From positions 310,001 through 374,000 of the forward strand of contig NZ_BMKL01000001.1 in assembly GCF_014644315.1 (NCBI RefSeq): 64,000 nucleotides of DNA. The letters run 5' to 3'. Below the pieces are notes generated by a model that searched no databases, was not told the DNA's origin, and saw only the letters and a program-made list of their open reading frames with translations. Numbering within the stretch: the stretch's first letter is position 1; every line of letters starts with the position of its first letter. A program made the position numbers and the translations under genes. This DNA is from Tsuneonella deserti (GTDB taxonomy: Bacteria > Pseudomonadota > Alphaproteobacteria > Sphingomonadales > Sphingomonadaceae). Shown here piece by piece: positions 1 to 19,953 of the stretch.

Positions 1-1716
1 GAAGATCTGCATCCCGTTGGCCAGTCGCTTCTGTCCGTTCGGCGCAGCCGGGATCTGGGTGCATTGCTGCGGGGTGTCCGTGAAAGGCGCGCCCTGCACG
101 AACAAGGCGTGCTGCAGAAGGTTCGACTTCACCAGTGCGATCTGCAGGCCGGTCGCAAACGGATTGAAGTCTTCGATGGGACGGGAGAACGGTCCTTCCG
201 GCTGCGCCGCCTCGCCATCGGGGAAGTGCGGACGGGATATATTGCCGATCGAGCGGGCCGCAAACGCGGTCTTGCCCGTGAACGCCGCGGGATCGTTGAA
301 GAACACCCGCGCGCGCTGGAGGAACTGCGGCACCTCCGCATCGGGATCGTCGAGCAGTTGCTGAGCCGCGACCGGATTGGAGAAGAACGCTACCGTGCGC
401 GCCTTTTGCAGAGAGACGTCGGTGCCGAAGATCGGTGCATCGGGCGCGCGGACGATGCCGAGCACGGTGCCGTAAGTATCGACCATGCTGATGGTCACTT
501 CCGCCCGGCTGTCGAGCGGACGGCGGATCTGCGCGCGCGCGCGGCTCATCACGCGGTAGGCTTCCTCCAGCACCGCGCGGGACTCGGCCGCAGAAAGGGC
601 CTGGCCGACCGCGGCGCCGTCGGTTCCTCCGCGGATCGGGTAGCGGTTGGCGCCGCTTCCGTTGGAAAGAACGAATGCATCGGGGAACGGGAATTCTGTG
701 CCGAGCGCCCGTCGATAACCGCTCGCCTCGCTGCCGTAGGGCGTGCCCGGAATGATCGATCCATTGGAGTAGCCGGTAACCGCCACCAGCAGGCCGATCG
801 AACCGTTGATGGCGCCGAAATCGTTCTTCAGCGGCGACAGGTCCGCCGGGCGCATGTCGGAAAAGCGCAGGCTCGTGCCGTCGACGGTGATCTTGTCGGC
901 GGTGATCGCATCGGGCGGTGCGAAGCCTTGGATACCCGCAAGCGCGATCGCTTCCTCGTCGTCCACCCCGAGGTCGGTGACGTTGCTGTCGAAGGCATAA
1001 TCGCCGTCCGCCATCACGCCAATCCCGCCGACCAGCACGCCGTTTTTGTAGAGCGGGAAGCCGCCGGGATCGGCGGCGAGGCCCAGCGGGGAACGCTTGG
1101 GACCGATGAATGACCGGGCGCCACCGGCTCCAAAGCGCGTGTTGAGGTCCGAACACGGCAACTGGCTGAATTGCACGCCGGAAAGCGGACCGCTTTCCAG
1201 GCCAACGGTGCCGGGCGAGGGCGGGAAGTTGGCCTGCACGATCATGCTCGCCGTGCGGGTCGAGAATGCGTTGCCGCCGCTCGACAGGTATGCGCCTGTC
1301 AGTGCTTTGGAGATGGCGCCGATGGTCGACACGACCTCCAGCCCTTGCGCATCGACATCGGAATCGTTGAGTACGCCGGTCGCGGTCAGCCGGCTGGTGA
1401 GCATCTTGCCGCGCGCGCCGTTCATCACGAACACGCCGAGCACGTTGCCGACCCGGTCGGTAACCGCAACGACCGCGGGCAGCTTGCGCGCCTGCGCCTC
1501 GCCCACTGCCTGCGCTATCACGCGCTGGACATCGCCCGTGGTCAGTGCCTCCTGCGCGGGTATGGCATAGACCGCGCCGGGCGTCGGCGACGGGGACGGA
1601 GCCGGGGTGGGCGAGCCGCCGCCACCGGCTCCGCCGGAACTGGTGCCGCCCCCGCCGCCGCAAGAGGCAAGCAGAAGGGCGATGGTCAGCCCGGCGATCC
1701 GGGGATTCGCTCTCAT
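1..1716 (-). CDS. GlcG/HbpS-family haem-binding lipoprotein, C-terminus cut by window edge
   Basis: An open frame of 572 codons runs from ATG 1716 off the left edge. It begins MRANPRIAGL and has a lipobox ending ALLLAS-C19, then a Gly/Ser and Pro-rich linker, so it is probably a lipoprotein exported to the periplasm or outer membrane. Two stretches resemble the GlcG/HbpS (haem-degrading, PF03928) fold: about residues 55-160 (DVQRVIAQAVGEAQA, VVAVTDRVGNVLGVF) and a second after about residue 370 (VLEEAYRVMSRARAQ, ISMVDTYGTVLGIV). Members of the family bind haem or small ligands. Its start overlaps the stop of the multihaem cytochrome gene by ATGA, so it is probably translated from the same message. 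A haem-linked role is inference. The family call is fairly secure; the ligand is unknown. Confidence 0.8.
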   Translation of the reverse strand, partial: MRANPRIAGLTIALLLASCGGGGGTSSGGAGGGGSPTPAPSPSPTPGAVYAIPAQEALTTGDVQRVIAQAVGEAQARKLPAVVAVTDRVGNVLGVFVMNGARGKMLTSRLTATGVLNDSDVDAQGLEVVSTIGAISKALTGAYLSSGGNAFSTRTASMIVQANFPPSPGTVGLESGPLSGVQFSQLPCSDLNTRFGAGGARSFIGPKRSPLGLAADPGGFPLYKNGVLVGGIGVMADGDYAFDSNVTDLGVDDEEAIALAGIQGFAPPDAITADKITVDGTSLRFSDMRPADLSPLKNDFGAINGSIGLLVAVTGYSNGSIIPGTPYGSEASGYRRALGTEFPFPDAFVLSNGSGANRYPIRGGTDGAAVGQALSAAESRAVLEEAYRVMSRARAQIRRPLDSRAEVTISMVDTYGTVLGIVRAPDAPIFGTDVSLQKARTVAFFSNPVAAQQLLDDPDAEVPQFLQRARVFFNDPAAFTGKTAFAARSIGNISRPHFPDGEAAQPEGPFSRPIEDFNPFATGLQIALVKSNLLQHALFVQGAPFTDTPQQCTQIPAAPNGQKRLANGMQIF

Positions 1717-3074
1717 CGCAGCGCGCCGATGCTGCGGGAAGCCTGGCCCAGCGCGGCCCGGAAGGCGGCCGGGTTATAGCTCTCGGGACTTTCGACCGCC
1801 GCATAGGCGCGGTTGATCGCGCCCCGAATGCCCGCTGCCGCGCCCACGGTGACCCGGTCTTCGCGCACCATTGCGTTGAGCAGCGTGTCGAGCGCCATGA
1901 CCGCCTGCGCCGACCCAGCGTAGTCGGTGAAACGCGGGCTAGTGGCCCGGTCCGCGATCGCCGCGACCACCTGGAACGCCTCGTCCGAGCCGTAGCCGCG
2001 TCCATCCAACGCGTTTTCGAGTGCCCCCGCCGCCGCTTCGAGTTTTGCGGCCGCAGTCACCGCTTCGCCGCGTCCCTGGCCCATCGCCTGGTGGAAAGCC
2101 GCAACGGAAGCATCGAAGCCAGCCGCCTGCGCCGGCGCGAGCACGCGCGCTACCGCAGAGAGCATTATCATGTTCTCGTCGTTGTAAGGCGGGATGCCGA
2201 AAAGGATCGGGCGGCCCGGGTTGGTCTCGAACGTCAATGTGCGCTGAGGACCGTCGGTGATCCGCCGATGGCAGCTATGACAATCGAAGAAGTAGAACTC
2301 GGGGAACATCCCCTGGGTGCCGAAGTCCGGCTGGCGGAACAGCGACAGCGATCGGCGCACCGCCTCTGCCTGGCCGACCGCCCACAGGCGCACGCTGCTC
2401 GGCGTGCTCTTGCGCTGCGCGTAATCGGCGTCGGCATCGTGGTGCTGTTGCAGCGCCGAGAACAGGTCGAGCTCGAACGAGAGGCGCGGATGGCCCGCGG
2501 CCATGAGCCGGTGGCTGACGAACTGCCCCTGGTCGCTACTGCCGTAATGGCAATCGAGGCATACCTTCGCGCGCACGGCCGGACGCTCGAGCGGGGTCAT
2601 GCCCGCCGAGACATTGGCCGCGTGGCTCCCCCCGACGGTAAAATGGGTTGGCAGCCAGCTCTCGGCAGCACCGTGGCAGGATTCGCAGCCGACCCCGTCC
2701 GAAAGCTGGAATTGAGGGCCGCGCGCGCCGCCGGTGGTCGCGTGGCAGCCGAGGCACTCGCCCGAAGCGGTCGGCTCGATGCCCAGTGTGGCGCCGATCT
2801 GGCGGCCTCGCAGGGTGCCCAGCACGGCATAGGCGCGGCTGTGCGCACCCGTTGGAGAACTGGGCTCCTGCCAGCTTGCGATCTCGTCCTGGCGAACGAC
2901 GGCGCCGTTGCCTTCGGCGCGACCATGACAGGTCGATCCGGCGCAACTGGCGACTCCCATCAGGCGTCCGCCACCCGCCGCCCCCGTCGCCGAAAGGGCG
3001 GCGAAAAGCGTGATCAGCAACGCGCAGCGCGCGGCGATTCTACTAAGCGGCCCCTTCCGCCTGCTGCCCCTCAC
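1713..3074 (-). CDS. Five-haem c-type cytochrome (cytochrome c554-like)
   Basis: Exported electron-transfer protein of 453 residues. The sequence shows one CX4CH site (CAGSTCH, about residue 44) and four CXXCH sites (CLGCH 107, CESCH 130, CLDCH 172, CHSCH 265), giving five predicted covalent haems. An N-terminal hydrophobic segment (CALLITLFAALSATGA) acts as signal peptide. The C-terminal third has no haem motif. I prefer the GTG start at 3074 over an upstream TTG at 3098: it overlaps the tpsA stop as GTGA and is preceded by a strong GGAGGAGG ribosome site. The 3' end overlaps the next gene by ATGA. Multihaem proteins of this make-up are known in Alphaproteobacteria. Being coupled to a two-partner-secretion exoprotein is unusual and suggests surface or periplasmic electron transfer, which is inference. 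Confidence 0.88.
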   Translation of the reverse strand: MRGSRRKGPLSRIAARCALLITLFAALSATGAAGGGRLMGVASCAGSTCHGRAEGNGAVVRQDEIASWQEPSSPTGAHSRAYAVLGTLRGRQIGATLGIEPTASGECLGCHATTGGARGPQFQLSDGVGCESCHGAAESWLPTHFTVGGSHAANVSAGMTPLERPAVRAKVCLDCHYGSSDQGQFVSHRLMAAGHPRLSFELDLFSALQQHHDADADYAQRKSTPSSVRLWAVGQAEAVRRSLSLFRQPDFGTQGMFPEFYFFDCHSCHRRITDGPQRTLTFETNPGRPILFGIPPYNDENMIMLSAVARVLAPAQAAGFDASVAAFHQAMGQGRGEAVTAAAKLEAAAGALENALDGRGYGSDEAFQVVAAIADRATSPRFTDYAGSAQAVMALDTLLNAMVREDRVTVGAAAGIRGAINRAYAAVESPESYNPAAFRAALGQASRSIGALR

Positions 3075-6000
3075 TCCGAGCCCTCCTCCGCCGGACAAGA
3101 CTGCTTATCGTTTTCCGGGGAGCATTTCACCTGCCAAAGGTCGTCGTTGCCAACACCCGTGATCGGCTCGTCGACGAGCGGCGGGGTGATGAGCGGCTGA
3201 TTGTCCTCCACCTGGACGAGTTGGGCGGCCGGCCCGTCGCCGGCTTCATCATTGGACGTCAGGAACAGTTCGAGATCGTCGTTCGATTGCCCGCCGAACA
3301 CATACTCGGGTACGCCGCAATTCACGCCCACCGCGCAGCCGTTGATCGTAATCGTCATGCCGCGCGAAAGTTGCGAGGCTTGCTCTCCGTTGATCGAGAC
3401 TGCCTGCGCCGTATCGAGGCCGGTCAGATCGCCCGACGAGCGCGAGATCACGCCGTTGATGGCGATCATCGGGTCGCTCGAGGAAGTTTCGATGTTGAGC
3501 TCGTTGGCGAGGAAGCCGCGGCGGGCGTCATATTCCGTCGACGTCCCGGCGTTCTGGACGAACAGGGCATCGCCAACGATCAGGTTGATCGTTCCTGCCT
3601 GGAGGTAGCCGCCTTCCGGTCCCGCCGGGGCGGGCTTGTCGAGCGCCGCGCTGATCGCCTGGAAGTCGGTCAGCGAGGCGATGGCATCGAGCGTATTGCG
3701 ATCGGCGATCGCGATGGTGTCCGCCTCGAGCTCGAGAATGCCCTGTACCGCTCCTCTGGCATTGCGCATCACGATCGAGCCGCTTCCGGCAAGCACATCG
3801 ATGCGCGACGGGTCGATCGAGAAAGTGTCCGCGTCCGACACCGTTGTCAGCTCGACCGCGCCGTTTACCTCCACCCGGCCGCCTGCGTCGACCTTGAGCA
3901 AGCCGCCGGCACCGATGTTTGCACCGTCGCCGAAAGCCATCGCCAGATCGCCGATGTTGACGTCGCCGCCGGCTCCCTCGCCGCCACGGCTGACCAAGGC
4001 GATCTGCCGGTCGGCAAACAGCCTGGTCGCCTCGTTCTTGTCGAGACTGTACTGTCCCTGCTGGCCGGTACCGCCGATGTTCATCGGGCTGGTGAGGGCA
4101 AGGTTGCGCAGCGTGATCGTCTCGGTGAGACCACGGATGCCGAGGCGCCCGGTCGTCCCGATCGCGATATCTCCGCTATCGACCGCGATGGTTTTGCCCG
4201 CCGCGGACCCGGTGAGGCTGAACAGTTGCCCGGCGATGATCGCGAGGTCACCGCTCGCGCGAACCTGACCGCCGATGGCGATGGTTGCGCCTTCCATCTG
4301 AACGCTGCCGGCATTGAGTTGGCCCGTGCTGCGCAGAGCGTCACCGGCCGAGAGCATGGCCGCGCCGCTGGCCGAGCCGTTCCCGAGCGTCAGGTCCTGC
4401 GCCGCCTGCAGCAAAAGGTCTCCCGAACTTGCGTTGGCTTCGAGGACTGTCAGCGACCCGGGCGAACGCAAATCGATCGCGCGCCCGCTCGCGGTCACTC
4501 CGCCCGCCGAGGACAGGGCCGCGACGCTGATGTTGCCGTTGGTGGCGATCAGGCTGGTAGTGCCGCCGCTGGTGAGAGCGCCAAGGCTGACCCCGGTCTG
4601 CCCTGACACGGAAACGTTGGAACCCGCGCTCAGCGCATTGGCGGCATTCACCGAGCCGCTCGTGCTGGTCAGGCTGAGCGATCCAGGAGTCGACAAGGCG
4701 GCATCAAGCTGCAGGCTGGCCAGCGAACTGAGCGCGATGCCATTCCCCTTGATCGCGCCGCCGACCTGCAGTGCTTCGCCGGTGCTGGTGAGGGCGACCG
4801 ACCCCTCGGCATCGACGGTGTTCACCGAGAGGTTGCCGGCAGTCTGCACGAGGACGTCGCCCTGGGTCGCATCGAGATCGGCGAAGTCCAGCGCTCCGCT
4901 CGACCCGATGTTGATCGAGCGACCGCTCGCCGTGACCGGACCGGCCGACATCAGGTTCGTCACCAAGACAGCACCGCCGCTGCTGGTCAGCGAAGTGGTC
5001 CCCCCGCTCGTCGCTTTGCCCAGAGTGATCCCGCTGTTGCCGGACACCGTGAGGTCGCTGCCAGCTGCGATCGCAGCATCGGATGACACGGAGCCGCTCG
5101 TGCTCGTCAGGGAGATCGCGCCAACCGTTGCGAGATCGCCGGCGAGCATGAGATCGGCGAGCGAGCTGAGAGCAATCCCGTTCCCGTTGATCGCGCCGCC
5201 GATCTGCAGCGCTCCACCCGTGCTGGTAAGCGCGACCGCTCCAGTGGCGTCCACCGGCCCAACCGCCAGGTTGCCGGCGGTTTGCACTGCAATGTCGCCA
5301 TCGTTCGCGTCCAGATCGGAGAAGCTGAGCGCCCCACTGGAGGCGATAGTGACCGAACGGCCATTGGCGGCGACCTGGCCGGTGGCGATCAACTCAGCCA
5401 CGTCGACAGATCCGCCCGCGCTCGTCAGCGAGGTGGTGCCGCCGCTGGTCAGTCGCGCCACGGTCACGCCGCTCTGTCCGTCGATGACCGAGTTCCCGCC
5501 CGAACCCAGGGGCCCGGTGCCGATCACGCTGCCGCCGGTGCTGGTGAGGTTCAGCGCCCCGGACGCCTTGCCTTGCGCGAGAGACAGATCGCCGGCCGTC
5601 GTCACGGCCAGGTCGCCCGCTGTCGCCTGCGCATCCGCGAAGCTCAAGGCTCCTGGCGAGCCGATCATGACCGATCGGCCGCTTGCGGTGACGAGCCCGG
5701 AAGAGGTGAGGCTGGCGATAGCGAGCGCGCCATTCTCGGCGGCGAGGAAGGTGGTTCCGCCCGACTCCACGCTGGTCAGCGAGAGGCCCTCGTCCGCCGA
5801 GAGGCTCACGTTACCGGTCGCAGCGACGCCAGGCGCAGAGAAGATCCCTCCCGCGTCGACCCCGAGGTCCCCGGTCGAGGCAAGGGCCGCATCCGAAACG
5901 ACGTCGCCCGCCGTGGTATAGAAAATGCCTTTGCCGTTGACCGCGCCGGTATTGTGGATCGACCCGCCGGTGCTGGTCAGCCTTACCGCTCCCGTCGCGT

Positions 6001-9000
6001 CGGCGGTCGCCAGAACCAGGTCGCCTGCCGTTTGCACGGCGATGTCACCGTCGGTAGCGTCGATGTCGGCGAAATCGAGGGCGCCACTGGATCCGATCGT
6101 GATCGAAAGACCCGTTGCCGTCACGAGGCCAAGCGAGCTTAGATCCGTGACCGAGATTGCCCCGTTTGCGCTGGTGAGCGCCGTGGTGCCCCCGCTGCTC
6201 GCCTGGCCCAGCGAAATTCCCGCCTTGCCAGAGACCGCAAGGTCACTGCCGGAATCGACCAGGCCCGATGCGCTTACCGAACCGCTCGTGCTTGTCAGGT
6301 TGATCGCGCCCGTCGCCGTCAGCGCGCCTGTCAGGTTCAGGTCGGCCAGCGAACTCAAGGTGATCGCGCTACCGTTTATTGCCCCGGTTCCCTGAAGGCC
6401 GCCATCCGTGCTCGTCAGCGACACAATGCCGCTGGCGGTGACCGTATCGACTGCCAGGTTGCCTGCGCTTTCGACCGTGATGTTGCTCGCGGTGGCATCG
6501 AGAGCCGCGAAGCTCAGCGCGCCGCTCGATCCAATGGTGATCGAACGGCCGCTCGCGGTGACCAGCCCTGCCGAATTGAGATCGTCGATTGCGACCGCGC
6601 CGCTGCTGCTCGCCAGCGAAGTCTCTCCTTCGCTGGTGAGCGCAGCCAGGGATATGCCGGTGTGACCATCGACCGTTGCGTCACCGCCCGCTGTGATCGC
6701 CCCGGTCCCGCTGACGCTGCCGCCCGTGCTGGTGATGACGAGCGCTCCGAATGCGCCCCCTTGCGCGAGCGAAAGATTTCCGGCCGTCGTCAGCCTGAGA
6801 TCGCCGGCGGTCGCCTGTGCGTTGGCGAAACTCAGCGCGCCGGGCGAACCGATGGTGATCGAGCGGCCTCTCGCCGTGACAAGACCGGGCGAGGTCAGGC
6901 TCGCGATGCTCAGCGCGCCGTTGTCCGCTGCAAGGAACGTGGTTCCGCCCGAGACGACGCTGGTGAGCGTCATACCAAGATCGGCGGACAGGCTGACGTT
7001 GCCAGCCGCGCTGACACCGGGGGCGGAGAAAGTCCCGCCGGCATCAACGCCGAGAGCGCCGGTGGAGGCGAGCGCTTGATCCGAAACGACGTTACCGCCG
7101 GCGGCATAGAAGATGCCGTTCCCGTTGACCGCGCCCGTGTTGTGGATCGAACCGCCGGTGCTGGTCAGCTTGACGGCTCCCGTCGCATCGGCCGTGGAGA
7201 GGAGCAAGTCTCCAGCGGTCTTGATCTCCAGGTTGCCTGAGGTTGCATCGGCATCAGCGAAGGTCAGCGCACCGAGCGACACGAGATTCACGGACCGGCC
7301 GAGGACGGTGACAGGCCCGCCCGAGCGCAAGTCGTGGCTGACCACCACCGGACCATTGATCGCCTGCAGATTAGTGGAGCCCCCGACCGCCAGATCGGTC
7401 ATGTCAATACCTGCGTGGGCTACGACCTCCGCATTGCCCGCTGCCGAAATTGGACCCGAGCTGGTGAAGGAGCCTCCTAGCGCCACCCCGAGGTCGCCGG
7501 CGATGTCGAGCGCACCACCGCCGGTTATCGTCAGGCTGCCGTCGCCGGGGCTACTGTGCAGCAAGACCGACCCTCCGACCTTGACCGGGGCACCGGAAAT
7601 CACCCCGGAAACACCTGCTTCCGCCGGACCGGTCGACCCGTCCGCCAACAGCACCAGGTCGTTCGTGACGGTCAGTCCAGAAGTGGGCGAGCCTATCTTC
7701 GCGGTGAACGCCGCGGAGCCAGCTACCGACGGGTCTTCAGTCGCCAGGTATCCGGATCCGATTATCACCAGAGTGTCGATCGTTCGCGGACCGGCATTCG
7801 CGCTCGATGTGTCGGCGAGGCTGAACGACGCGTCGCCGCCCGTCCCCGTGCCGAGCGTCCCGCCGTACCCACCGTTTCCGGTAGCGGCGATGGAAACGAA
7901 CGGGAAGGCGAAGGCAATGTCGGCCAACTCCATCGAGGCGATACCGCCATCGCCATCTCCGCCACTGCCGTAGAGTCCGCTGGCTGAGTATCCGGCAAGG
8001 CCGCCGTAGCCGACGCCTTCGAGCGAGATCGACGACGCAATGCCGAGGGAAGCCGTGCCGCTGGCACTGAACAAAGCCGTGCCGCCCGAACCAGTGGCGC
8101 CGTTGCCCCCGGCGCCCACAGCATTGGCGTTGTATGCGCCGTTGCCGCCTGTCCCCTGTGCTTCGACGAGCAGGGAGCCCGTGTCGGTCAGGACGCCTCC
8201 AGTGGCAGCAAACGAAGCCGTGCCGCCCCGACCGCTGCCCGCGAGCGAGCCGGTCGCGCCGGAGGTTTCGCCGATACCCGCCGCACCCGTGCCGTCGGCG
8301 ACAATCTCGACCTGGGTCGTATCCACCGCGCCGCCGGAAAGGACGAAGCTCGCCGTGCCGCCAATGCCCTGGCCGGATGCGAAGGCGCCGCCTCCGCCGG
8401 GCCTTTCGCCCGCCTGGCCGCCCAAGCCGCTGGCAGAAACGTGAATCAGCCCGGTCCTGAGCGCGCCTTGCGCTACGTCGAGCGTGGCGGTGCCGCCAGC
8501 CCCATTTCCGCCTTCGCCCTGGACCGGCTGGATTCGGTCAGCTCGACCATCGGCGACCACACTCAGAGACGGTGCCCTGATCGCCCCGCCGCTGCCGCCG
8601 GTGCGCATCTCGACGCTCGCGGTGCCGCCCGTGGCATCGAAGCCGTTCGCCGAACTGCCGGATGCGAAGGCGTCCGCGAACTGGCCTTCTTCGGCGTTGG
8701 CGTTCACCGTGATGCCGGAGACCGACGAGATATCTCCCCCTGCCGTATAAAGCGTCGCGGTGCCGCCGAACGCATCGGCCGCGGACGGTCCTTCCGCCCC
8801 CAGGCCGCGCGCAGAGATGACCAGTTGGCCGATGGCTTCCACGCCGTTGATGATCTTGATCAGCCCGCCCGCTTCCGAGCCGACTTCGGCGGTGCCGCCT
8901 GTCGCCGTGCCTGCGCTGCTCAATGCGCCGCCGGTCATGCCGTTGGAGACGACTTCGAGATAAGGCGTGGTGATGGTCCCGCCATTGGCAATGACGCTCG

Positions 9001-12211: not shown

Positions 12212-14007
12212 CAGCGGTCTCCCCAGGGCAGCAGGCGTGCGGCAATCGTGAACAGCAGACGCGGATCGCTCCGCTCGAGCTGGTAGCCGGCGCGTTTCAA
12301 AGGTGCTGCGAACGTCAATCCGATGTCGAAGTGCTCGCCCCAGCGGCCGCGCACTCCGGCGCCCGCGGTCAGCACGTCACGCGGGTCGGGATTGATGCGA
12401 TTGTCGTGGATCCAGGTCCGGGCCCAGTCGACGAATGCGAACGGCTCGAAGGCGAACCCGCCGTTGGCGCCGGGATAGCGCGACCCCGCGCGCACCTCGA
12501 AAGATGCGCCGACTGCGTCATCGCCCACGACGACGCCAGGATCGAGCCCGCGGCCGATGGTGTAGTTGCCGAGGCTGGCTTGCTCGTAGGCCAGCAGCGC
12601 GTGATCGGCTACCTGGACCAGCGGCAACAGCGCCAGGGTGACGCGCGGGACAGGACGATATTCGATGGCACCGTCGAGCCGGGCGACGAGCGCGCGCGGA
12701 TCGGCCAGCGCATTGCTGATCGGGATGTTGGGCGGCCGGCAGGTGGCGATCACCGAGCAGTCGTGGCTGGCGCCGAAGATGCCGAGCCCCTTGCGAAGCT
12801 CCAGCGACAGGGCGCTGCGCCACTTGGGCTCGCCCGGGGAAAACCCATCGCGGCCTGAGGCACTCGCCGCGTCGATCATTGCGTGATCGAGCCGCAGGAA
12901 AGCGATCGACAGGTCATCTTCGCTCAGTCTCGTTCCGGCGAAGGACAACTTCTGGTCGACCAGCTCGAGCCCGCCCGTGAGCGCGAGGGAACTCGTCCGC
13001 CGGCGTTGCAGCACGGCGCGCAGATGGCCCTCGGCCGCGAACGTCTTAGTCAGAAAGCCGCCGCCCGCCAGGCTCGGCTCGCTCCGGCCCCACAACACGC
13101 TCCCGCCCAGGCGCAGCCCGTTGGCGCCCAGCGCGATCTCCTCGCCCAGCCGGATGATGCGTTGCTCGTCCCAGTCGACGGTGTTGTAGATGCTCGCGGT
13201 GGTGCGGTCTCCCAACCCGAGCAGCCCGTTGAGGGCCAGTTCGGCGAACAGCCCTTCGCGCCCGGTCGCCTTCGCGCCGAGATTCTGGGCGCCGACGGTC
13301 AACTCGATCGGGGTGTAGTCGACGGTAATGTCGCCCACTACCTCGCCCGGCGCGCGGCCGGCGGATCGCAGGGTCAGCCGCGCGTCATAGCCGGGCAGGT
13401 CACGCAGAAGGAGCAGGTTGCGGGTGGCGTCATTGGTGTTGAACCACTCCTCGCGCGTAAGCGGCTCCAGATGCGAAGCGATAAGTCCCTCGGCGGCGCC
13501 TGCGTCGCCCCGGACCTGCAGTTCGGTAAGCTTGGCGGCCAGCACATCCATCCGCGCGACGCCGCCCTTCTCGATCCGTTGCGGCGGTATCTGGACTGCG
13601 GCTAGGAAGCCGCGCGCGCGGAGCATGGTCGCGGCCCGGTCGCGGACTTCGCACAGCGCCGTGATGGGCAGGTCGCGATTGGCAAACTCCGTCCACGAGG
13701 GGGCGAGGTCGGCCGCGGGGACGCCAGGCAGGCCGGTGAACTCGATCGCCGAGAACGTCACGCGGGCGTTCGCGAAGGCAGGCTCGGCAAGCGGGCAGGG
13801 CCCGCGCTCGATGTCATCCTTGACCGACAGCCGGGTAGGCGTCGGCAGAGCGGTGTCGCGTCCGACCGAAAGATCGTCGCGGGAGGGCACCGGGCCTGCC
13901 TGCGCATGGGCCGCCGCGGCCGGAATCAGCGCCAGCGCGCTGCCCAACGCCAATATGGTGCGCCCCCTGCGCAATGCAGGCGACGACGTGCCGGCACAAA
14001 CGCCCAT
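12211..14007 (-). CDS. TpsB outer-membrane transporter (FhaC/ShlB/HecB family)
   Basis: A 598-residue outer-membrane beta-barrel that translocates the TpsA partner. There is a signal peptide (LALIPAAAAHA), a POTRA-like region at about residues 70-180 (VTFSAIEFTGLPGVPAADL ... VRDRAATMLRARGFL), then a ShlB-type barrel from about residue 200 (LLLLRDLPGYDARLTLRSA, ELTVGAQNLGAKATGREG) to a C-terminal LLFTIAARLLPWGDR strand. Length and architecture are normal for the family. A GGGAGGAC ribosome site sits just upstream of ATG 14007. The stop overlaps the tpsA start (TGATG). A 109-bp gap separates it from the secreted protein gene upstream, the only sizeable gap in this seven-gene locus. Confidence 0.93.
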   Translation of the reverse strand: MGVCAGTSSPALRRGRTILALGSALALIPAAAAHAQAGPVPSRDDLSVGRDTALPTPTRLSVKDDIERGPCPLAEPAFANARVTFSAIEFTGLPGVPAADLAPSWTEFANRDLPITALCEVRDRAATMLRARGFLAAVQIPPQRIEKGGVARMDVLAAKLTELQVRGDAGAAEGLIASHLEPLTREEWFNTNDATRNLLLLRDLPGYDARLTLRSAGRAPGEVVGDITVDYTPIELTVGAQNLGAKATGREGLFAELALNGLLGLGDRTTASIYNTVDWDEQRIIRLGEEIALGANGLRLGGSVLWGRSEPSLAGGGFLTKTFAAEGHLRAVLQRRRTSSLALTGGLELVDQKLSFAGTRLSEDDLSIAFLRLDHAMIDAASASGRDGFSPGEPKWRSALSLELRKGLGIFGASHDCSVIATCRPPNIPISNALADPRALVARLDGAIEYRPVPRVTLALLPLVQVADHALLAYEQASLGNYTIGRGLDPGVVVGDDAVGASFEVRAGSRYPGANGGFAFEPFAFVDWARTWIHDNRINPDPRDVLTAGAGVRGRWGEHFDIGLTFAAPLKRAGYQLERSDPRLLFTIAARLLPWGDR

Positions 14008-14031
14008 TCAGTCCTCCCTCGAATCCCCCTC

Positions 14032-14048
14032 ACGGCCAATGTGGCCGT
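14032..14048 (-). promoter_or_regulatory. Short hairpin in the tpsB leader
   Basis: Arms ACGGCC and GGCCGT (14032-14037 and 14043-14048) with a 5-nt loop lie about 25 bases before the tpsB start, between the FecR-like gene and tpsB. There is no T-run, so it is not an obvious terminator. It could be a leader structure or a processing site. Function is not shown. Confidence 0.3.
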
Positions 14049-14116
14049 CCGAAGATTTCCCTGTTTTTCAAAACTGGCGGGGATCGTTGCCCCGGGAGCG
14101 ACCTCGGCGCGAAAGT

Positions 14117-14857
14117 CTAGCCGTCGGCGGTGTTCATGGCCGCACTGAGCACATCCAGTTGCGCCGTGCAGCCCTTCTCGATCAGCTTGAGAGCAAGGTC
14201 TTCCGGCGCGGCCGGGACGCTATCGAGCAGTCGAAAGGTAATCTCGTGCGGCGCCCCGTCCTGTCCGGCGACAACATAGCGTGCGCCATCGGTGACCGGT
14301 GCCTGGGACAGGTCCCAGACTGTCAGCATCTCGCCATCGCTGAAGGCCGCCTTGCTGCTCGCTCTCGCGCCATCGGCGCCGATCACATAAAGCGCTTCTC
14401 CGGTGGTGGCGGGGCGCCACAGGCGCACTTCGGCAGGATTGGCGATGCACATCGGGCCTGCCTGACGGACATCCACATACCACAGGTTGGGCCGGGTAAC
14501 CGGGCCCGCATCATCGCCGCGCACCGCGCCAGTCCGCACCCGCTGCGCGGAGCGTTGGCGGGTGAGCAGGGCGAAAGTGCTGCTGCGATCGGCCGCCGGC
14601 TTGTCGGCCAGCGAGAAAGTGCCGGCACCCTTGAGCACGCGGGTCCCACGCTGGTCGAGAACCGTTACGGTGTCGCCGGACTTGAGCACTACCTTGTCGG
14701 TGTCGGCCAGTTTCTTTCCGACAGGGTAGAGTTTTGCCGAAGGACCGCTAACCGAGACAACCACGCCTGCCTGGGCCTGTGAAAGCGGGACAAGTGCCGC
14801 GACAGCCAGGGCCGCTGCGATCAGCGGACGATGCAGGCGGCGGTCAGGAAACGACAT
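14117..14857 (-). CDS. Secreted FecR-like protein of unknown function
   Basis: A 246-residue protein with a clear signal peptide (AALAVAALVPLSQAQA-G). Residues about 40-90 read as a small beta domain (KLADTDKVVLKSGDTVTVLD, RGTRVLKGAGTFSL), resembling the FecR-type periplasmic fold. The remainder, with WYVDVRQAGPMCIANP and LRLW-like strands, is not recognised. ATG 14857 has a GGAGGG ribosome site and lies 14 bases inside the 3' end of the cyclase gene, so the two are translationally linked. Placed between a CHASE2 cyclase and a TPS pair, it may be a periplasmic ligand or sensor partner. That is inference. Confidence 0.7.
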   Translation of the reverse strand: MSFPDRRLHRPLIAAALAVAALVPLSQAQAGVVVSVSGPSAKLYPVGKKLADTDKVVLKSGDTVTVLDQRGTRVLKGAGTFSLADKPAADRSSTFALLTRQRSAQRVRTGAVRGDDAGPVTRPNLWYVDVRQAGPMCIANPAEVRLWRPATTGEALYVIGADGARASSKAAFSDGEMLTVWDLSQAPVTDGARYVVAGQDGAPHEITFRLLDSVPAAPEDLALKLIEKGCTAQLDVLSAAMNTADG

Positions 14858-16871
14858 ATGCTCCCTCCTCGTTCAGGGATCGAGTCCTCTGTAGCAAATT
14901 TTTGAGGGCGTTGTCAGCGGGATAGCGCCTGGTCAGCGGAATTATTTTAGCTGCCGCTTCCTCCGGATCGGACATCGACACGGCCTGGGCGAGGGCCTCC
15001 CGATCGGCGGCAGGCCAGTCGGGCGCGACGTCGAACACGTCGACCGGTTTCGCCCGTCCGCGCAGGACCACGCGGCCCAGCGGTCGCCACCAGTCGAGCT
15101 CGCTCCGCTCGACCATCTCTCGGCTCGCCAGAACGTTGGAATCGAGAGCCTTGTTGGCGGATTCGAGCCGCGCGGCCGTGTTCATGCTATCCCCCAGCGC
15201 GGTGTACTGGATGCGGTTTTCACCGCCGAAATTGCCTACCACTGCCTCGCCCCAATGCATTCCGACACGGGTCTTGCCGATCTTCGGCAGCGAGGGATCG
15301 GACTTTGCCACCTCCTTGCGGAAAGCTTCTCCGGCCTGCCACAGCGCATAGCCCGCGCGTGCGGCTCGCTCGCCATCGTCGGGCCTGGCGATAGGTGCGC
15401 CCCAGAAGGCGACCACGGCGTCGCCGACGAACTTGTCGAGCACGCCGCCGTGGTCGAGCACGACCTTGCTCAGCATCGACAGGTAGCGATTCAGCAGGCG
15501 GGCAACCTGTTCCGGCTGGAGCGCGTGGCTCATTTTGGTAAAGCCCTCGAGATCGCTGAAGATCACGAAAAGCTCTTTCTTTTCGCCGTGCAGGGAGAGC
15601 AGCTCGGGCCGCTCGATGATCTCCCGGGCCATCTCGCGTGGCAGGTATTTGCCGAGCGCTCCCTGCGCGAAATTGCGCTGCACGGCGCCTGCTGTGCGGG
15701 CTGCCGAGGTGACCGCCGTAAAGGCGAGGATCCAGCCGAGAACCCAGCCGACTGCCGGCAACCCGTAGGTATCCACCCCGCCGTATTGGAAGGCCATGGG
15801 GATGCCGAGCATGAAGGCGAACTGGACCGCCAGCAGGACATAGATGCGCCAGCTGCCCCATTCGAGCAGTCCCGTCAGCACCGCCATCAACACGAACAGG
15901 ATGGCGAATGCCCACAAGGTGACGGGCAGGAGCCGGGGAAGAGCCTTGCCATCCAGCATCTGCGCCAGCATCTCCGCATGCACCTGCAACCCCGGCGGCT
16001 GGGGGGAGTCTGCGCCCTCGCTCAAGGTGGTCGCGACCCGGTCTATATCGACTATGTCGCCGCCGATCAGCACGTAACGCCCCTTGATCGCGGGCGCGAG
16101 ATAGGGGGCAACCGCGGGATCGAGGAATGTCTGGATGGGCAGCGACTGGAACAGGGGCGTGTCGCGGCTGTCCGAAAGCCGGTAGGCTATCGCGCCGGTA
16201 TATCCCGGCAGCGTCTTGTTTGCCTGACCAGCCTCGGCCAGCATCCGGCGGGCAAGCAGCGGCGGCAGGTCTGCGCGGATTTCGGGCCATACCCGCGCGA
16301 CCCCGTACCGGTCGTTGAGCCGAACGCTCGCCGGCTTGGCCTTGCTCCCCTCAAGGCGCGCGAGCAGGCTCTTGAGATAGCGGTCCTGGTCGTAACCGAT
16401 GCTGTTCGCATTGGTCGCCCGGTCCGCGTACGCCACGGCGACCGGGGTGCTCATCGACCGCAATTGGGCGACGAGAGCGTCGTCTTCGTCCTGCGGCTGA
16501 TCGAACAGGATATCGATCCCGATCGCTTTCGCGCCCATGGTGTCGAGGTTGGCCAGGACTTTGGCCAGGAGGCCGCGGTCAAGGGGCGATCGCTTGCGGA
16601 GTTCCGCGAGCGTCTGATCATTATAGACCACCAGCACGATGCGCGGGTCCTGCGAGACGCGGTGCCGTTCGGCATCGTCCGTGACGCGAAAATCGTAGAG
16701 TGCCCGTTCGGCGGAACTAACGACAGGAATATCCTGCGTCTCGGAGAAGCCCCAACCGTACCGGGCGATGAAAAGCGCCAGCAGCACGAGCACTCCGGTA
16801 AGGGCGAGCCGCCTTGGACCCGCCTCGCGCACGTTGCGCCAGCCGCGCCGGACCAGCCCCTTTCCGATCAT
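14844..16871 (-). CDS. CHASE2-domain class III adenylate cyclase
   Basis: Inner-membrane receptor cyclase, about 675 residues from ATG 16871. Order: an N-terminal membrane segment (ALTGVLVLLALFIARYGW), an extracytoplasmic CHASE2 sensor domain (about 40-300; VLVVYNDQTLAELRKRSPLDR, GIDILFDQP), two or three transmembrane helices (LWAFAILFVLMAVLTGLL; WVLGWILAFTAVTSA), then a class III cyclase domain from about residue 435. Catalytic residues are intact: metal Asp in FSDLEGFT (440) and FVGD (484), adenine-selecting Lys in LDKF (480), and Asn/Arg in NTAARLES (564/568), all pointing to ATP rather than GTP. A further start at 16919 would overlap the CHAT gene by 32 bases. I prefer 16871, which lies 16 bases after the CHAT stop. 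Confidence 0.92.
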   Translation of the reverse strand: MIGKGLVRRGWRNVREAGPRRLALTGVLVLLALFIARYGWGFSETQDIPVVSSAERALYDFRVTDDAERHRVSQDPRIVLVVYNDQTLAELRKRSPLDRGLLAKVLANLDTMGAKAIGIDILFDQPQDEDDALVAQLRSMSTPVAVAYADRATNANSIGYDQDRYLKSLLARLEGSKAKPASVRLNDRYGVARVWPEIRADLPPLLARRMLAEAGQANKTLPGYTGAIAYRLSDSRDTPLFQSLPIQTFLDPAVAPYLAPAIKGRYVLIGGDIVDIDRVATTLSEGADSPQPPGLQVHAEMLAQMLDGKALPRLLPVTLWAFAILFVLMAVLTGLLEWGSWRIYVLLAVQFAFMLGIPMAFQYGGVDTYGLPAVGWVLGWILAFTAVTSAARTAGAVQRNFAQGALGKYLPREMAREIIERPELLSLHGEKKELFVIFSDLEGFTKMSHALQPEQVARLLNRYLSMLSKVVLDHGGVLDKFVGDAVVAFWGAPIARPDDGERAARAGYALWQAGEAFRKEVAKSDPSLPKIGKTRVGMHWGEAVVGNFGGENRIQYTALGDSMNTAARLESANKALDSNVLASREMVERSELDWWRPLGRVVLRGRAKPVDVFDVAPDWPAADREALAQAVSMSDPEEAAAKIIPLTRRYPADNALKNLLQRTRSLNEEGAYVVS

Positions 16872-16887
16872 CGATACGTGCCTGCGC

Positions 16888-19800
16888 TCAGTTTCCGTGG
16901 AACAACGGACGCTCGCCATCGCCGATCAGCGCGAAGCCCGACCAGTAGAACGGGTGCGAGGTTTCCGCGTCGTCCATCAGGCGGGTTTGCGCGGCGAGCA
17001 GCGCCTCGCCGGTCCCGAGTGACTGGGGCGCAGCGAAAAAACTTTCGAACAGGCGCCTGGTCGCTTGATATTCGTCGGGGGCAGGCCAGTGGCTGGCGAT
17101 TACCTGTCGTCCGCCCGCTCCGATAAAAGCCCGCACCAGGCCATCCAGCGCCTGCTGGCCGCCGCCTTCGACGCCGGCTGCCTGGGTTGCCTCGAGCCCG
17201 GCGAGGCTGGCAGTATTGCAGGCGGAGAGGATCACGAGATCCGCATCGAGATCGAGGTCGAATATCTCTCCAAACTGAAGCAGCCCGTCCGAGCCGGGCC
17301 CGCCGAATGAGGTCAACAGCGCGGGGTTCGCCGGGCACGATGGCTTCGGCGGGGTGACGAGACCGTGGGTGGCGAAATGGACGATGCGGTAATTTCCGAG
17401 ATCGGGCCGGCTTGCGATGGCAGTGTCGGTGAAGGCGGCACCGGTCACCAGCGCCGATCGGCCCGTGCCCAGTTCCTGGCTGGCGAACACCAGCTCCTCT
17501 GCCGAGATCGGCCGGTTCCACGCCGCAAGGGGGATCTGGCAACCCGGCTCGTCTGACTGCACGCCGCGCACGAGCGATGCGTTCTGCAGCGGACCCACCG
17601 GCTCGTTCTGTCCCAGGCCGAGGTAGAGCGAGCCGGCGTTCGATGAAGGCGCCTTGCGCGCATCGCGGAAGCTTGCCGGCGACAGGGCGGTGCTGATCGC
17701 CCGTCCCCGTCCCAGCCAGGCCAGCCCCCGGAAATCGTACTCGTCGCCGCCTGACTTCACGCGGGCGTGGTAGGCGTCCACCCCGGACTGTTCGGCCACC
17801 AGCAGGTTAGGCGGCAACTCCATCAGCGCGCCATCCGGTTCGAACACCAGGTGCTTGACGTTCGCAAGGTCCCCGGAGACCGGTCCCATGAGTGCGTCGA
17901 ACAGCTTGCGCGCGGCATCGACGTCGAACGGGTACGTCGCGTTGATCCCCCCAACCGAGACGGAGATGGATTCGCGCAGTTGCCGGACCAACTTGTCCAC
18001 TTCGCTCGCGCTGGCGCCCACCTTCCAGCCTGCCGACCGTTCGGGAGACAGGTACACCGCGTACATCGCGTCACCGATCTCGACCAGTTCGAGATAGGCT
18101 TCCTGCGGAGCCAGCAGGGCGCGCATCTCGTCCGCGGACATGTAGTCGCGGGCGAGCGACCGGTAAGCCGGGTATCCGGACAGCGCCGTCAGCAATTCGA
18201 GCTGGGAGACTGCCAGCCGCTCCCGTCGGGCGGTCAGCTCTGCGAGGCTCCCTGCGGCGGGAGCGGTCGCTCCGGGCGCCTGCATCTGGGCCAGTGTCAG
18301 GTCGAGCCGATTAAGCTCACGGCGGACTGCGCTTTCGCGGCGGAACAGTTCGGACGCCTGCCCGTCACCCGCTGCCAGGCGCCGCGCCAGCTGGCCAAGC
18401 GTTCGCGCCGCACCCGGCCTTTCGATCAGCTGTGCGGCAGCGAACATGTCGGACACCAGCGCCGGATCCCGCGAGGATCCTGCCACGAGCATGTCGAAGT
18501 ACGGGGCAAGCTGGTTCTCGAGGCCCACCAAGGCGCTCTTGTCCGATTGCGTGTTCGCGACGATCTCGCGGTACAATGTCATCGCCTGCCCCGGTCCTCC
18601 ATGCCGGGTGAGATAGGCCGCCAGCCGCGCCTTGGCCGCGCTGACCGAAGCGGTTTCGGGATAGCGCAGCTCGGTCAGGGCGAGAGACTGGCGCAGCAGC
18701 GAAAGCGCCTCGTCATCGCGCCCGAGTGCCTCGTTGGATAGCGCCATCTCGCTCATGAGCTGCGCTTCGAGCCGGGCGGCGGAGACAACGCGTCCCTGGC
18801 GGATCGCGGCGATCTGCTGGCGTGCCCTGGTCAGCGCGGCCAGCGCCTCGGCCGGCTTGCCCTCCAGCCTGTCCGCGGTTGCGCCGAGCTGGAGCGCTTG
18901 CGCATCGATAATCGCCGCCCGTTCGAGTGATGTCAGGCGCGTTTCCTGCGCCACCGCATCGCTCAGGCTTGCCGCGAGGCCCGCGTTGAGACCATTGGAA
19001 ATGGTCCGGTCGATCTCCACCGAGCCATCGGCAGAGGCGACCGGATCGACCAGTTCGGGAACCGGCCGCGCGAGGATGGCCCGCGCCTCGTCCAGCCGGC
19101 CCCGATTGATGGCGTCGATCGCTTCGAAGTTGCGCAGCAGGCGCGACTGTATCGGGTCTCGCAGTCCCATCGCCCTCGCTTCGCCAAACACCCTCTCGGC
19201 TTCCTGGTAACGGCCCATGTTGGACAACTGGAGCGCACGGTTGACGATCACCTCGTGCTGGCTGGTCGCGAGCTGCGCCGGATCGCCGCCTCCCACTGCG
19301 GTGGTGACAAGGTCGGGACGAAAGTATTCCTCCGCGCCAGAGAAATCGCCGGCGTTGTTCTGGCGATATCCCTGGCCGATCAGCAGGTCCGCTTCGCCCA
19401 GGCTGGCGCGCGCCTGGGCCAGCGAGCCAGTGCCGCCAGTGGTGACAATGTCCACCGTTCCGGGGACCAGGTGGTCAGCGACGATGCTGGCAAGCGCCAG
19501 GCGGAGCGCGCTGTCATACGCGGCGATTCCTTCGACGACCGTCGTGCGCTCCTTGCCCGGAGCGGTGTATACCACCCATTCGAGTGGCCCTGAACGTTCG
19601 CGGCAGCGGCTGACCGTCACCCCTGCCGAAAAGCCCTGCGCTGGTGTGGCGGCATCGCAATCGAGTGGCTGGGCGCGGTCCTGCGCGATCCGCTCCATGA
19701 CGCCTGCGGGCGTTCGCAAACTGTAGGCAGAGCCGACCGGCCGGTTCACGTCGCGGCAGATCAGCGCCCACTTCCGATCGAACAGCGAAGCGCGGGCCGC

Positions 19801-19953
19801 GCCCAGGCGAACACCCTGCGCTTCGCATACAGCTCCCGCGTTGCCGATGGCGAAGCGTTCCGCGGCGAGCGGCGACGGCCCTTCCGCGGTGGCGGGCGCA
19901 GCGGCCCCGAGGACCGTAACAACGACGGCGAGCCTTATGAATATGGACCGCAC
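16888..19953 (-). CDS. Exported CHAT-domain (caspase-like) protein
   Basis: Protein of 1021 residues. I choose GTG 19953 because of the GGGGAGGG site 8 bases upstream and because the protein then opens with a signal peptide (SIFIRLAVVVTVLGAAAPATA); the reading frame extends to 20121 without such support. The middle part is helical and TPR-like (for example LALTELRYPETASVSAAKARLAAYL). The C-terminal CHAT domain keeps the clan CD dyad: His863 in HFATHG and Cys912 in LSACNTA. CHAT proteins can be peptidases or scaffolds; most studied ones are cytoplasmic, so the apparent export is notable. First gene of the CHAT-cyclase-TPS locus. Substrate unknown; the secreted neighbours are plausible targets (inference). 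Confidence 0.9.
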   Translation of the reverse strand: MRSIFIRLAVVVTVLGAAAPATAEGPSPLAAERFAIGNAGAVCEAQGVRLGAARASLFDRKWALICRDVNRPVGSAYSLRTPAGVMERIAQDRAQPLDCDAATPAQGFSAGVTVSRCRERSGPLEWVVYTAPGKERTTVVEGIAAYDSALRLALASIVADHLVPGTVDIVTTGGTGSLAQARASLGEADLLIGQGYRQNNAGDFSGAEEYFRPDLVTTAVGGGDPAQLATSQHEVIVNRALQLSNMGRYQEAERVFGEARAMGLRDPIQSRLLRNFEAIDAINRGRLDEARAILARPVPELVDPVASADGSVEIDRTISNGLNAGLAASLSDAVAQETRLTSLERAAIIDAQALQLGATADRLEGKPAEALAALTRARQQIAAIRQGRVVSAARLEAQLMSEMALSNEALGRDDEALSLLRQSLALTELRYPETASVSAAKARLAAYLTRHGGPGQAMTLYREIVANTQSDKSALVGLENQLAPYFDMLVAGSSRDPALVSDMFAAAQLIERPGAARTLGQLARRLAAGDGQASELFRRESAVRRELNRLDLTLAQMQAPGATAPAAGSLAELTARRERLAVSQLELLTALSGYPAYRSLARDYMSADEMRALLAPQEAYLELVEIGDAMYAVYLSPERSAGWKVGASASEVDKLVRQLRESISVSVGGINATYPFDVDAARKLFDALMGPVSGDLANVKHLVFEPDGALMELPPNLLVAEQSGVDAYHARVKSGGDEYDFRGLAWLGRGRAISTALSPASFRDARKAPSSNAGSLYLGLGQNEPVGPLQNASLVRGVQSDEPGCQIPLAAWNRPISAEELVFASQELGTGRSALVTGAAFTDTAIASRPDLGNYRIVHFATHGLVTPPKPSCPANPALLTSFGGPGSDGLLQFGEIFDLDLDADLVILSACNTASLAGLEATQAAGVEGGGQQALDGLVRAFIGAGGRQVIASHWPAPDEYQATRRLFESFFAAPQSLGTGEALLAAQTRLMDDAETSHPFYWSGFALIGDGERPLFHGN

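Follow-up and report, generated by a model that had tools for sequence, protein, structure and literature searches.

Genes for a putative envelope protease, a CHASE2 cyclase and two-partner secretion adjoin those of a predicted electron conduit in a conserved locus of Tsuneonella deserti

Why should genes for a caspase-fold protease, an adenylate cyclase, a giant secreted protein and multihaem cytochromes lie together on one strand of a bacterial chromosome? The question was raised by a 64,000-nucleotide stretch of the Tsuneonella deserti genome (G000:C1:310001-374000, on a 2.72-Mb contig; hereafter the window), in which a preliminary description had noted seven genes facing the same way and mostly overlapping. 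Both the extent of the locus and its conservation exceed what was reported then. We tentatively read it as two conserved modules joined, an envelope protease/cyclase switch and an electron conduit, with the cyclic AMP (cAMP) of the former possibly acting on the reductase of the latter.

All seven frames were found on the minus strand. In the order of reading, they encode a predicted exported tetratricopeptide-repeat (TPR)-CHAT protein of caspase fold with a hydrophobic N-terminus (16888..19953; PF12770), a CHASE2 and class III adenylate cyclase protein whose best PDB match is CyaB (14844..16919; PF05226 and PF00211), a small exported protein of two beta domains, as judged from its alignment and AlphaFold2 model (14117..14857), a TpsB outer-membrane transporter (12211..14007), a TpsA exoprotein of 3046 aa (3071..12211), an exported pentahaem cytochrome (1713..3098) and an HbpS/GlcG-domain lipoprotein (1..1716). 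The arrangement was as described earlier: with the starts chosen, the CHAT and cyclase genes overlap by 32 nt and the cyclase and small-protein genes by 14 nt, and the sole intergenic gap, 109 nt, lies between the small protein and TpsB. The TpsB/TpsA and cytochrome/GlcG junctions read TGATG and ATGA, and that of TpsA and the cytochrome reads GTGA if the cytochrome starts at the in-frame GTG at 3074 (a start that is our choice, and likely), so that these three overlaps measure 1-4 nt. The count of seven, on the other hand, holds for the window alone, as the GlcG gene is cut by the window edge and the locus continues leftward (L002, overlapping L065). Six terminator-like sites were found against 10.6 expected, with none at the gene junctions, which together with the overlaps appears to favour a single transcript. 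For a classical Crp site the window contained four loose matches, where 13.6 were expected, and the locus none.

To follow the locus in the family we used a draw of 149 genomes, not the whole family, in which six proteins were searched with thresholds of 1e-10 (TpsB, cytochrome, GlcG), 1e-20 (CHAT and the LVIVD decahaem protein encoded left of the window) and 1e-40 (cyclase); LVIVD genes split into pieces were counted once by their main match, and where the cytochrome of G106 and the CHAT of G020 had each been matched as two pieces, one piece was counted. In 28 genomes of 22 genera, CHAT, cyclase and TpsB fell on the same strand inside 12 kb. Co-occurrence of at least four of the families as neighbours had been proposed earlier as a check on the unit, and five of them (CHAT, cyclase, TpsB, cytochrome and GlcG) were found on one strand within 60 kb in 17/149 genomes, representing 13 genera. 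Chance clustering is argued against by the gene order being kept across these 13 genera at about 40-60% protein identity. A genome scan with TpsB over named genomes returned one locus, in Tsuneonella rigui, where TpsB is 82% identical and the gene order is kept over the compared stretch. The small protein stood between cyclase and TpsB in all 12 full-set genomes fetched (of the 17), and also in G011 and G084. The cytochrome, GlcG and LVIVD proteins each occurred in 53/149 genomes, an identical set, and in 49 of these they were on one strand and no more than 15 kb apart.

Do the proteins of the first module retain what their families need? The CHAT protein, the GTG start of which lies behind GGGAGG, scored 164 bits against PF12770 (cut-off 24), and its residues 1-26 are hydrophobic, from which export is predicted. 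Its H863 and C912, which we take to be a putative catalytic His/Cys dyad, were kept in 17/17 aligned rows (one protein counted twice). We describe it as a CHAT-domain protein and a putative peptidase; a PDB sequence search with it gave no match. The cyclase matched CHASE2 (PF05226, 96 bits) and PF00211 (53 bits), both above cut-off, and hydropathy predicted one transmembrane segment, a periplasmic CHASE2 domain, three transmembrane segments and a cytosolic cyclase domain. Its D456, K496, D500, D577, N580 and R584, presumably the metal, purine and transition-state residues, were conserved in 25-26 of 26 rows, the exception being a gap. In the small protein, C137 and C230 were invariant in an alignment of 44, and the AlphaFold2 model had a pLDDT of 84.2 and a pTM of 0.57. 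The label 'FecR-like' given to it previously was not supported: Pfam FecR matched none of 13 members at E≤1, and comparison of folds yielded no confident match.

TpsB matched ShlB above cut-off (43 bits) and POTRA_2 below cut-off, and among solved structures it matched CdiB (6wim, E 5e-5). The best PDB match of the TpsA N-terminus was the two-partner secretion (TPS) domain of HxuA (4i84, E 3e-5, residues ~113-241), and NCBIfam adhesin models were matched below cut-off. With a ShlB barrel in TpsB and a TPS domain at the TpsA N-terminus, the two are a predicted two-partner secretion pair. A TpsA frame could be read in 11 of the 12 loci in which it was sought (G127, the exception, showed no TpsB match there), and all 11 carried the C-terminal motif [IV]D[ED]P[IV]TG.GN[DE]D[LF]W; we know of no TpsA protein with a similar C-terminal motif. 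It was also noticed that this conserved C-terminus (window:3071-12211 and relatives) often has further cysteine pairs, and it may be a surface anchor. For one more TpsA-like frame (L155), no Pfam match was obtained. In some relatives TpsB is broken by a single internal stop, or the cytochrome is matched as two separate pieces (G094:C1:1353895-1355673, G081:C1:226005-227708, G145:C1:1335680-1337377 and G106:C4:309584-310812).

The second module includes the last two of the seven genes and lies mostly to the left of the window. The cytochrome has four CXXCH motifs and one CX4CH, all five present in 25/25 rows, and matched Cytochrome_C554 above cut-off (39 bits). The whole GlcG gene (L002:14734-16716, 660 aa) reaches about 270 nt beyond the window edge; its product carries the lipobox LASC and matched PF03928 (HbpS-like) in three stretches, with 78 bits. 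Beyond a convergent insert of a TPR gene and two DUF4331 genes (L002:11993-14729) follow, on the minus strand, the genes for a barrel-like protein (L002:9993-11849) and for a decahaem protein with LVIVD repeats (L002:5998-9993). Convergent to the latter, on the plus strand, are those for a class III phosphodiesterase (L002:5135-5992), a decahaem protein with an FHA domain (L002:3377-5131), a membrane protein (IMP) with two WX3HX13H motifs and SGXXG (L002:2514-3368) and a reductase with FAD/NAD(P), two cyclic-nucleotide-binding and 4Fe-4S domains (L002:46-2514; PF13247, E 2.7e-10). Among the neighbourhoods compared, the TPR/DUF4331 insert was matched only in a genome of the same genus, G047.

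Ten CXXCH motifs were invariant in 12 aligned LVIVD proteins, and the motifs of the FHA-decahaem protein were kept in 15/15. The IMP had both WX3HX13H motifs in 12/13 rows (the other being cut by the locus end) and SGXXG in 12/13, three of the 13 rows being copies of the protein of the window genome; a simple hydropathy plot gave four segments. The Gly, Glu and Arg of both cyclic-nucleotide-binding sites were present in 10/10 reductases of the family, and the first site was kept in 6/6 distant reductases. The metal residues of the phosphodiesterase were likewise kept in its aligned rows. Neither the LVIVD profile nor that of the barrel found a match in PDB sequences; for the barrel, 'Alginate export' stood in the names of at least two among 120 relatives listed, and Pfam Alginate_exp was matched in 1/15 with an E-value of 0.058.

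The comparison established which genes are present, that they are conserved and overlap, and that their catalytic and haem motifs are intact; from these observations the following mechanism can be proposed. TpsB would export the giant TpsA exoprotein to the cell surface, and the exported CHAT protease and the small periplasmic protein would act on the periplasmic CHASE2 domain of the cyclase; cAMP would in this way rise when the exoprotein or the envelope changes. In Sinorhizobium meliloti, CHASE2 restrains the cyclase, because CyaD1 without CHASE2 synthesises cAMP constitutively, according to the accessible text of PMC5498481 and PMC4222275. CHASE2 may act analogously in the present locus, as a restraint on the cyclase, and the simplest role of a protease such as CHAT would be removal of this restraint; it is in this sense that we infer activation of the cyclase by the protease. 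Sensing of the exoprotein by CHASE2 would be a further step. The trans-envelope conduit would be fed by the cytosolic FAD/NAD(P)/4Fe-4S reductase, from which electrons would pass to the two-haem-b membrane protein, the FHA-decahaem protein and the pentahaem cytochrome and, via the outer-membrane barrel, to the decahaem/LVIVD protein; the function of the barrel as a porin and the direction and substrate of the electrons are what we infer from this gene set. The haem-binding lipoprotein would belong to the conduit. The reductase, with its two cyclic-nucleotide-binding domains, would be the cAMP receptor of the locus, cAMP from the first module binding to it and gating electron flow, and the class III phosphodiesterase would trim cyclic nucleotides.

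How far does the first module hold together outside the family? The small-protein profile matched in 29 of 385 genomes of the class, 27 of them outside the family, and of the 29 matches that these 27 genomes gave, 20, belonging to 19 genomes, were fetched. Sixteen of these 20 loci contained a cyclase, 13 a caspase-fold protease and seven a cyclic-nucleotide-binding protein. The protease was CHAT in six (L127, L128, L133, L137, L139, L140) and Peptidase_C14 in seven (L125, L129, L132, L134, L136, L138, L141), the latter called by Pfam on L129, L132, L136 and L141 and by our own profile on the other three; a regular-expression search for caspase motifs gave no match where Pfam did find Peptidase_C14. 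L126, L130 and L135 had the cyclase alone, and L131, L142, L143 and L144 had none of cyclase, protease and cyclic-nucleotide-binding protein. In G321, G416 and G152, a single run comprised TpsB, an exoprotein of 2354-3165 aa, CHAT, small protein, cyclase and cyclic-nucleotide-binding protein, the exoprotein being named by its position (MBG repeats occur in part of that of G321); in G207 the exoprotein is cut off by the contig end, and in G275 TpsB is on the opposite strand. In a tree of 53 cyclases, 12 from other families grouped with four family cyclases of the order CHAT-small protein-cyclase-TpsB (84/76, open fork). As controls, neither seven family cyclases lacking the small protein nor 20 stretches of conduit genes taken from 15 genomes of other families showed CHAT or C14 nearby, and three further family cyclases with weak small-protein matches (L165, L169, L170) were also without CHAT. 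The tie between exoprotein, envelope protease and cAMP that had been suggested for the window was thus supported as a genetic unit, with a core of cyclase, small protein and protease in other alphaproteobacterial families. The swapping of CHAT for C14 between loci hints at a common requirement for protease activity, and the role of removing the cyclase restraint would then apply to C14 as well.

Several observations were made beside these loci. Proteins combining Peptidase_C14 with an FGE-sulfatase domain stand next to the small protein and cyclase at L136:5891-7792, L129:6004-7953 and L141:10941-13490, and a mechanosensitive-channel protein with a cyclic-nucleotide-binding domain directly follows the cyclase at L128:7126-8568. 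A further relative of the cyclase (L172:8284-11075) has a phosphodiesterase relative ending against it, with no small protein or CHAT. Tandem copies of the small protein occur in another class (G669:C22:42949-44417 and G579:C99:31525-32993).

The conduit was also followed outside the family. The LVIVD profile matched in 29/385 genomes of the class, 26 of them outside the family, and 20 stretches from 15 of these 26 genomes were examined. Barrel and LVIVD genes were present in 15/15, GlcG in 14/15 and the pentahaem cytochrome in 6/15; reductase, IMP and FHA-decahaem protein occurred together in 11/15, and several of the others were cut by contig or stretch ends. Three of the conduit genomes (G240, G422, G512) carry the small protein elsewhere in the genome.

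A number of results weigh against the proposed mechanism. In the fetched stretches of the 15 conduit genomes, cyclase, CHAT, C14, small protein, TpsB and phosphodiesterase were all absent (0/15), and the conduit with its cyclic-nucleotide-binding reductase stands there with no cyclase nearby, so that any cyclase could serve it. Conversely, CHAT-cyclase-TPS genes are present in G011 and G084, both without a cytochrome match. In favour of a link, cyclase, cytochrome, GlcG and LVIVD lay on one strand within 60 kb in 35/149 family genomes; in 13 of these, however, they fell within 16 kb, with the cyclase 0.8-1.2 kb before the cytochrome and no CHAT or TPS gene between. Four cyclase/small-protein pairs of the family (L177-L180) had no CHAT or C14 in the stretch. 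The distance from TpsA to the cytochrome was 4.4-7.3 kb in 8 of the 11 family loci read, and in seven of these eight a varying number of genes in the gap, judged by eye, presumably encode CysS (cysS), a hydroxyacid dehydrogenase, a thiamine diphosphate (ThDP) enzyme or an aldehyde dehydrogenase. On the cyclase tree, the family clade with the window cyclase mixes 'full' and 'conduit-only' neighbourhoods, the window and T. rigui (full) being sister to G047 (conduit only); therefore, the linkage has changed several times. The small protein matched in 27/329 genomes phylum-wide, and among four short stretches read there, three from other classes were without a cyclase within 8 kb (one had C14), while the fourth, from a member of the class, does have a cyclase; as far as seen, the cyclase link of the small protein is an alphaproteobacterial trait. 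The AlphaFold model of the barrel was poor (pLDDT 42.6), with 19 strands predicted. Finally, the phosphodiesterase scored 141 bits for SpdA against 65 bits for the E. coli-type 3',5'-cAMP enzyme, both below cut-off, and it may serve 2',3' isomers, as SpdA of S. meliloti does, which had no detectable activity on 3',5'-cAMP (PMC5498481, PMC4222275, in their accessible text).

The strongest alternative is suggested by these same data, namely that two working modules are merely adjacent, with cAMP from the TPS/CHAT/cyclase genes acting on other receptors and the conduit working independently. That either module is found without the other nearby, that the cyclase tree shows repeated change of neighbourhood, that other genes lie between the modules in several loci and that a separate cyclic-nucleotide-binding protein accompanies the cyclase in 7/20 loci of other families are all consistent with it, and we consider it a real possibility. 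Against it stand the 35 genomes in which cyclase and conduit share strand and region, including the 13 with the tighter spacing, and the overlaps of 1-4 nt that run here from TpsB through TpsA and the cytochrome to GlcG. Two joined modules remain the reading to which we tentatively incline. Its full form, in which a CHASE2 cyclase answers to an exoprotein on the surface and to an exported protease of caspase type, its cAMP opening or closing the conduit by binding to the reductase, and in which a protease/small-protein/CHASE2-cyclase switch with interchangeable CHAT and C14 extends more widely among alphaproteobacteria, is doubtful as a whole; the coupling of the modules is a bold but testable idea.

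Could the haem proteins serve the exoprotein instead? The preliminary description had supposed that they provide redox chemistry to the displayed exoprotein, the state of which is read by CHASE2, and TpsA does adjoin the cytochrome here, in G147 and G075 and in T. rigui. However, the cytochrome and GlcG track LVIVD and the barrel, not TpsA: they share one set of 53 family genomes with LVIVD, and in the 15 genomes elsewhere none of cyclase, CHAT, small protein and TpsB accompanied the conduit within the fetched stretches. The surface and cAMP half of that model has gained support, the haem half is better explained by a neighbouring conduit, and the model in its original form is unlikely. Capture of haem in the manner of HxuA, in which TpsA would bind haem or a haem carrier and the HbpS-like lipoprotein would take haem up, would agree with HxuA being the best PDB match of the TpsA N-terminus and with the presence of that lipoprotein; the match is, however, limited to residues ~113-241, the TPS domain common to such exoproteins, and two decahaem proteins point to electron transfer, which makes this quite improbable. 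A role of CHAT, a Pycsar-like cyclase and a CdiA-like exoprotein in phage defence or contact inhibition, to which matches of the cyclase domain to PycC models (best 113 bits) and of TpsB to CdiB might point, is very improbable, as the matches to PycC extend over no more than the catalytic domain, the sensor domain is predicted to be periplasmic and the other four proteins scanned matched no PADLOC model, the search for immunity and effector genes being confined to those five proteins.

To our knowledge, few roles are known for exported caspase-fold proteases of bacteria, and the recurring CHASE2-cyclase neighbourhood suggests one that can be tested. The cyclic-nucleotide-binding reductase likewise makes second-messenger control of an electron conduit directly testable, and many nameless genes can now be assigned to a single locus that cultivated bacteria, Tsuneonella and Qipengyuania among them, carry.

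In comparison with known systems, a literature search, whose coverage omits most subscription journals, found no publication on this combination of modules. The conduit resembles PCC4, a putative porin-cytochrome complex described by He et al. (2017, PMC5566968, in its accessible text), to which belong a porin, an IMP, a PF13247 Fe-S gene and cytochromes of 4, 5 and 10 haems; the IMP of PCC3 and PCC4 is given there two WX3HX13H motifs, SGXXG and five transmembrane helices. Shared with it are a porin-like gene, several multihaem cytochromes and an IMP with SGXXG and two WX3HX13H, and, as in PCC4 Subgroup II, a PF13247 Fe-S gene lies upstream of the IMP gene (here L002:46-2514, with the IMP from 2514). 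The haem counts here are 5, 10 and 10, however, and the Fe-S gene is fused with FAD and two cyclic-nucleotide-binding domains; the main text of that paper nowhere uses the terms LVIVD, FHA, cNMP, cyclic nucleotide or hemagglutinin. Filing the conduit as PCC4 was rejected on the haem counts, and it is called PCC4-like only. There is also a likeness to the Ext cytochromes, in that the LVIVD decahaem protein matched NCBIfam ExtM, but far below cut-off (64 bits against 800) and over a short region.

The cyaD1 locus of S. meliloti has, according to the accessible text of PMC5498481 and PMC4222275, a CHASE2 cyclase near a Crp-type regulator, a FecR-domain protein (SMc02177), a periplasmic protein and the class III phosphodiesterase SpdA. 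A CHASE2 cyclase, a periplasmic protein and a class III phosphodiesterase close together are common to both loci, whereas cAMP is read there by the Crp-type Clr, and the FecR profile matches there and not here; the words caspase, hemagglutinin and two-partner are not present in the accessible text of PMC5498481. With two-partner secretion systems such as those of HxuA and CdiB the locus shares the TpsB/TpsA pair and the TPS-domain match, whereas the pair is here linked to a protease, a cyclase and cytochromes.

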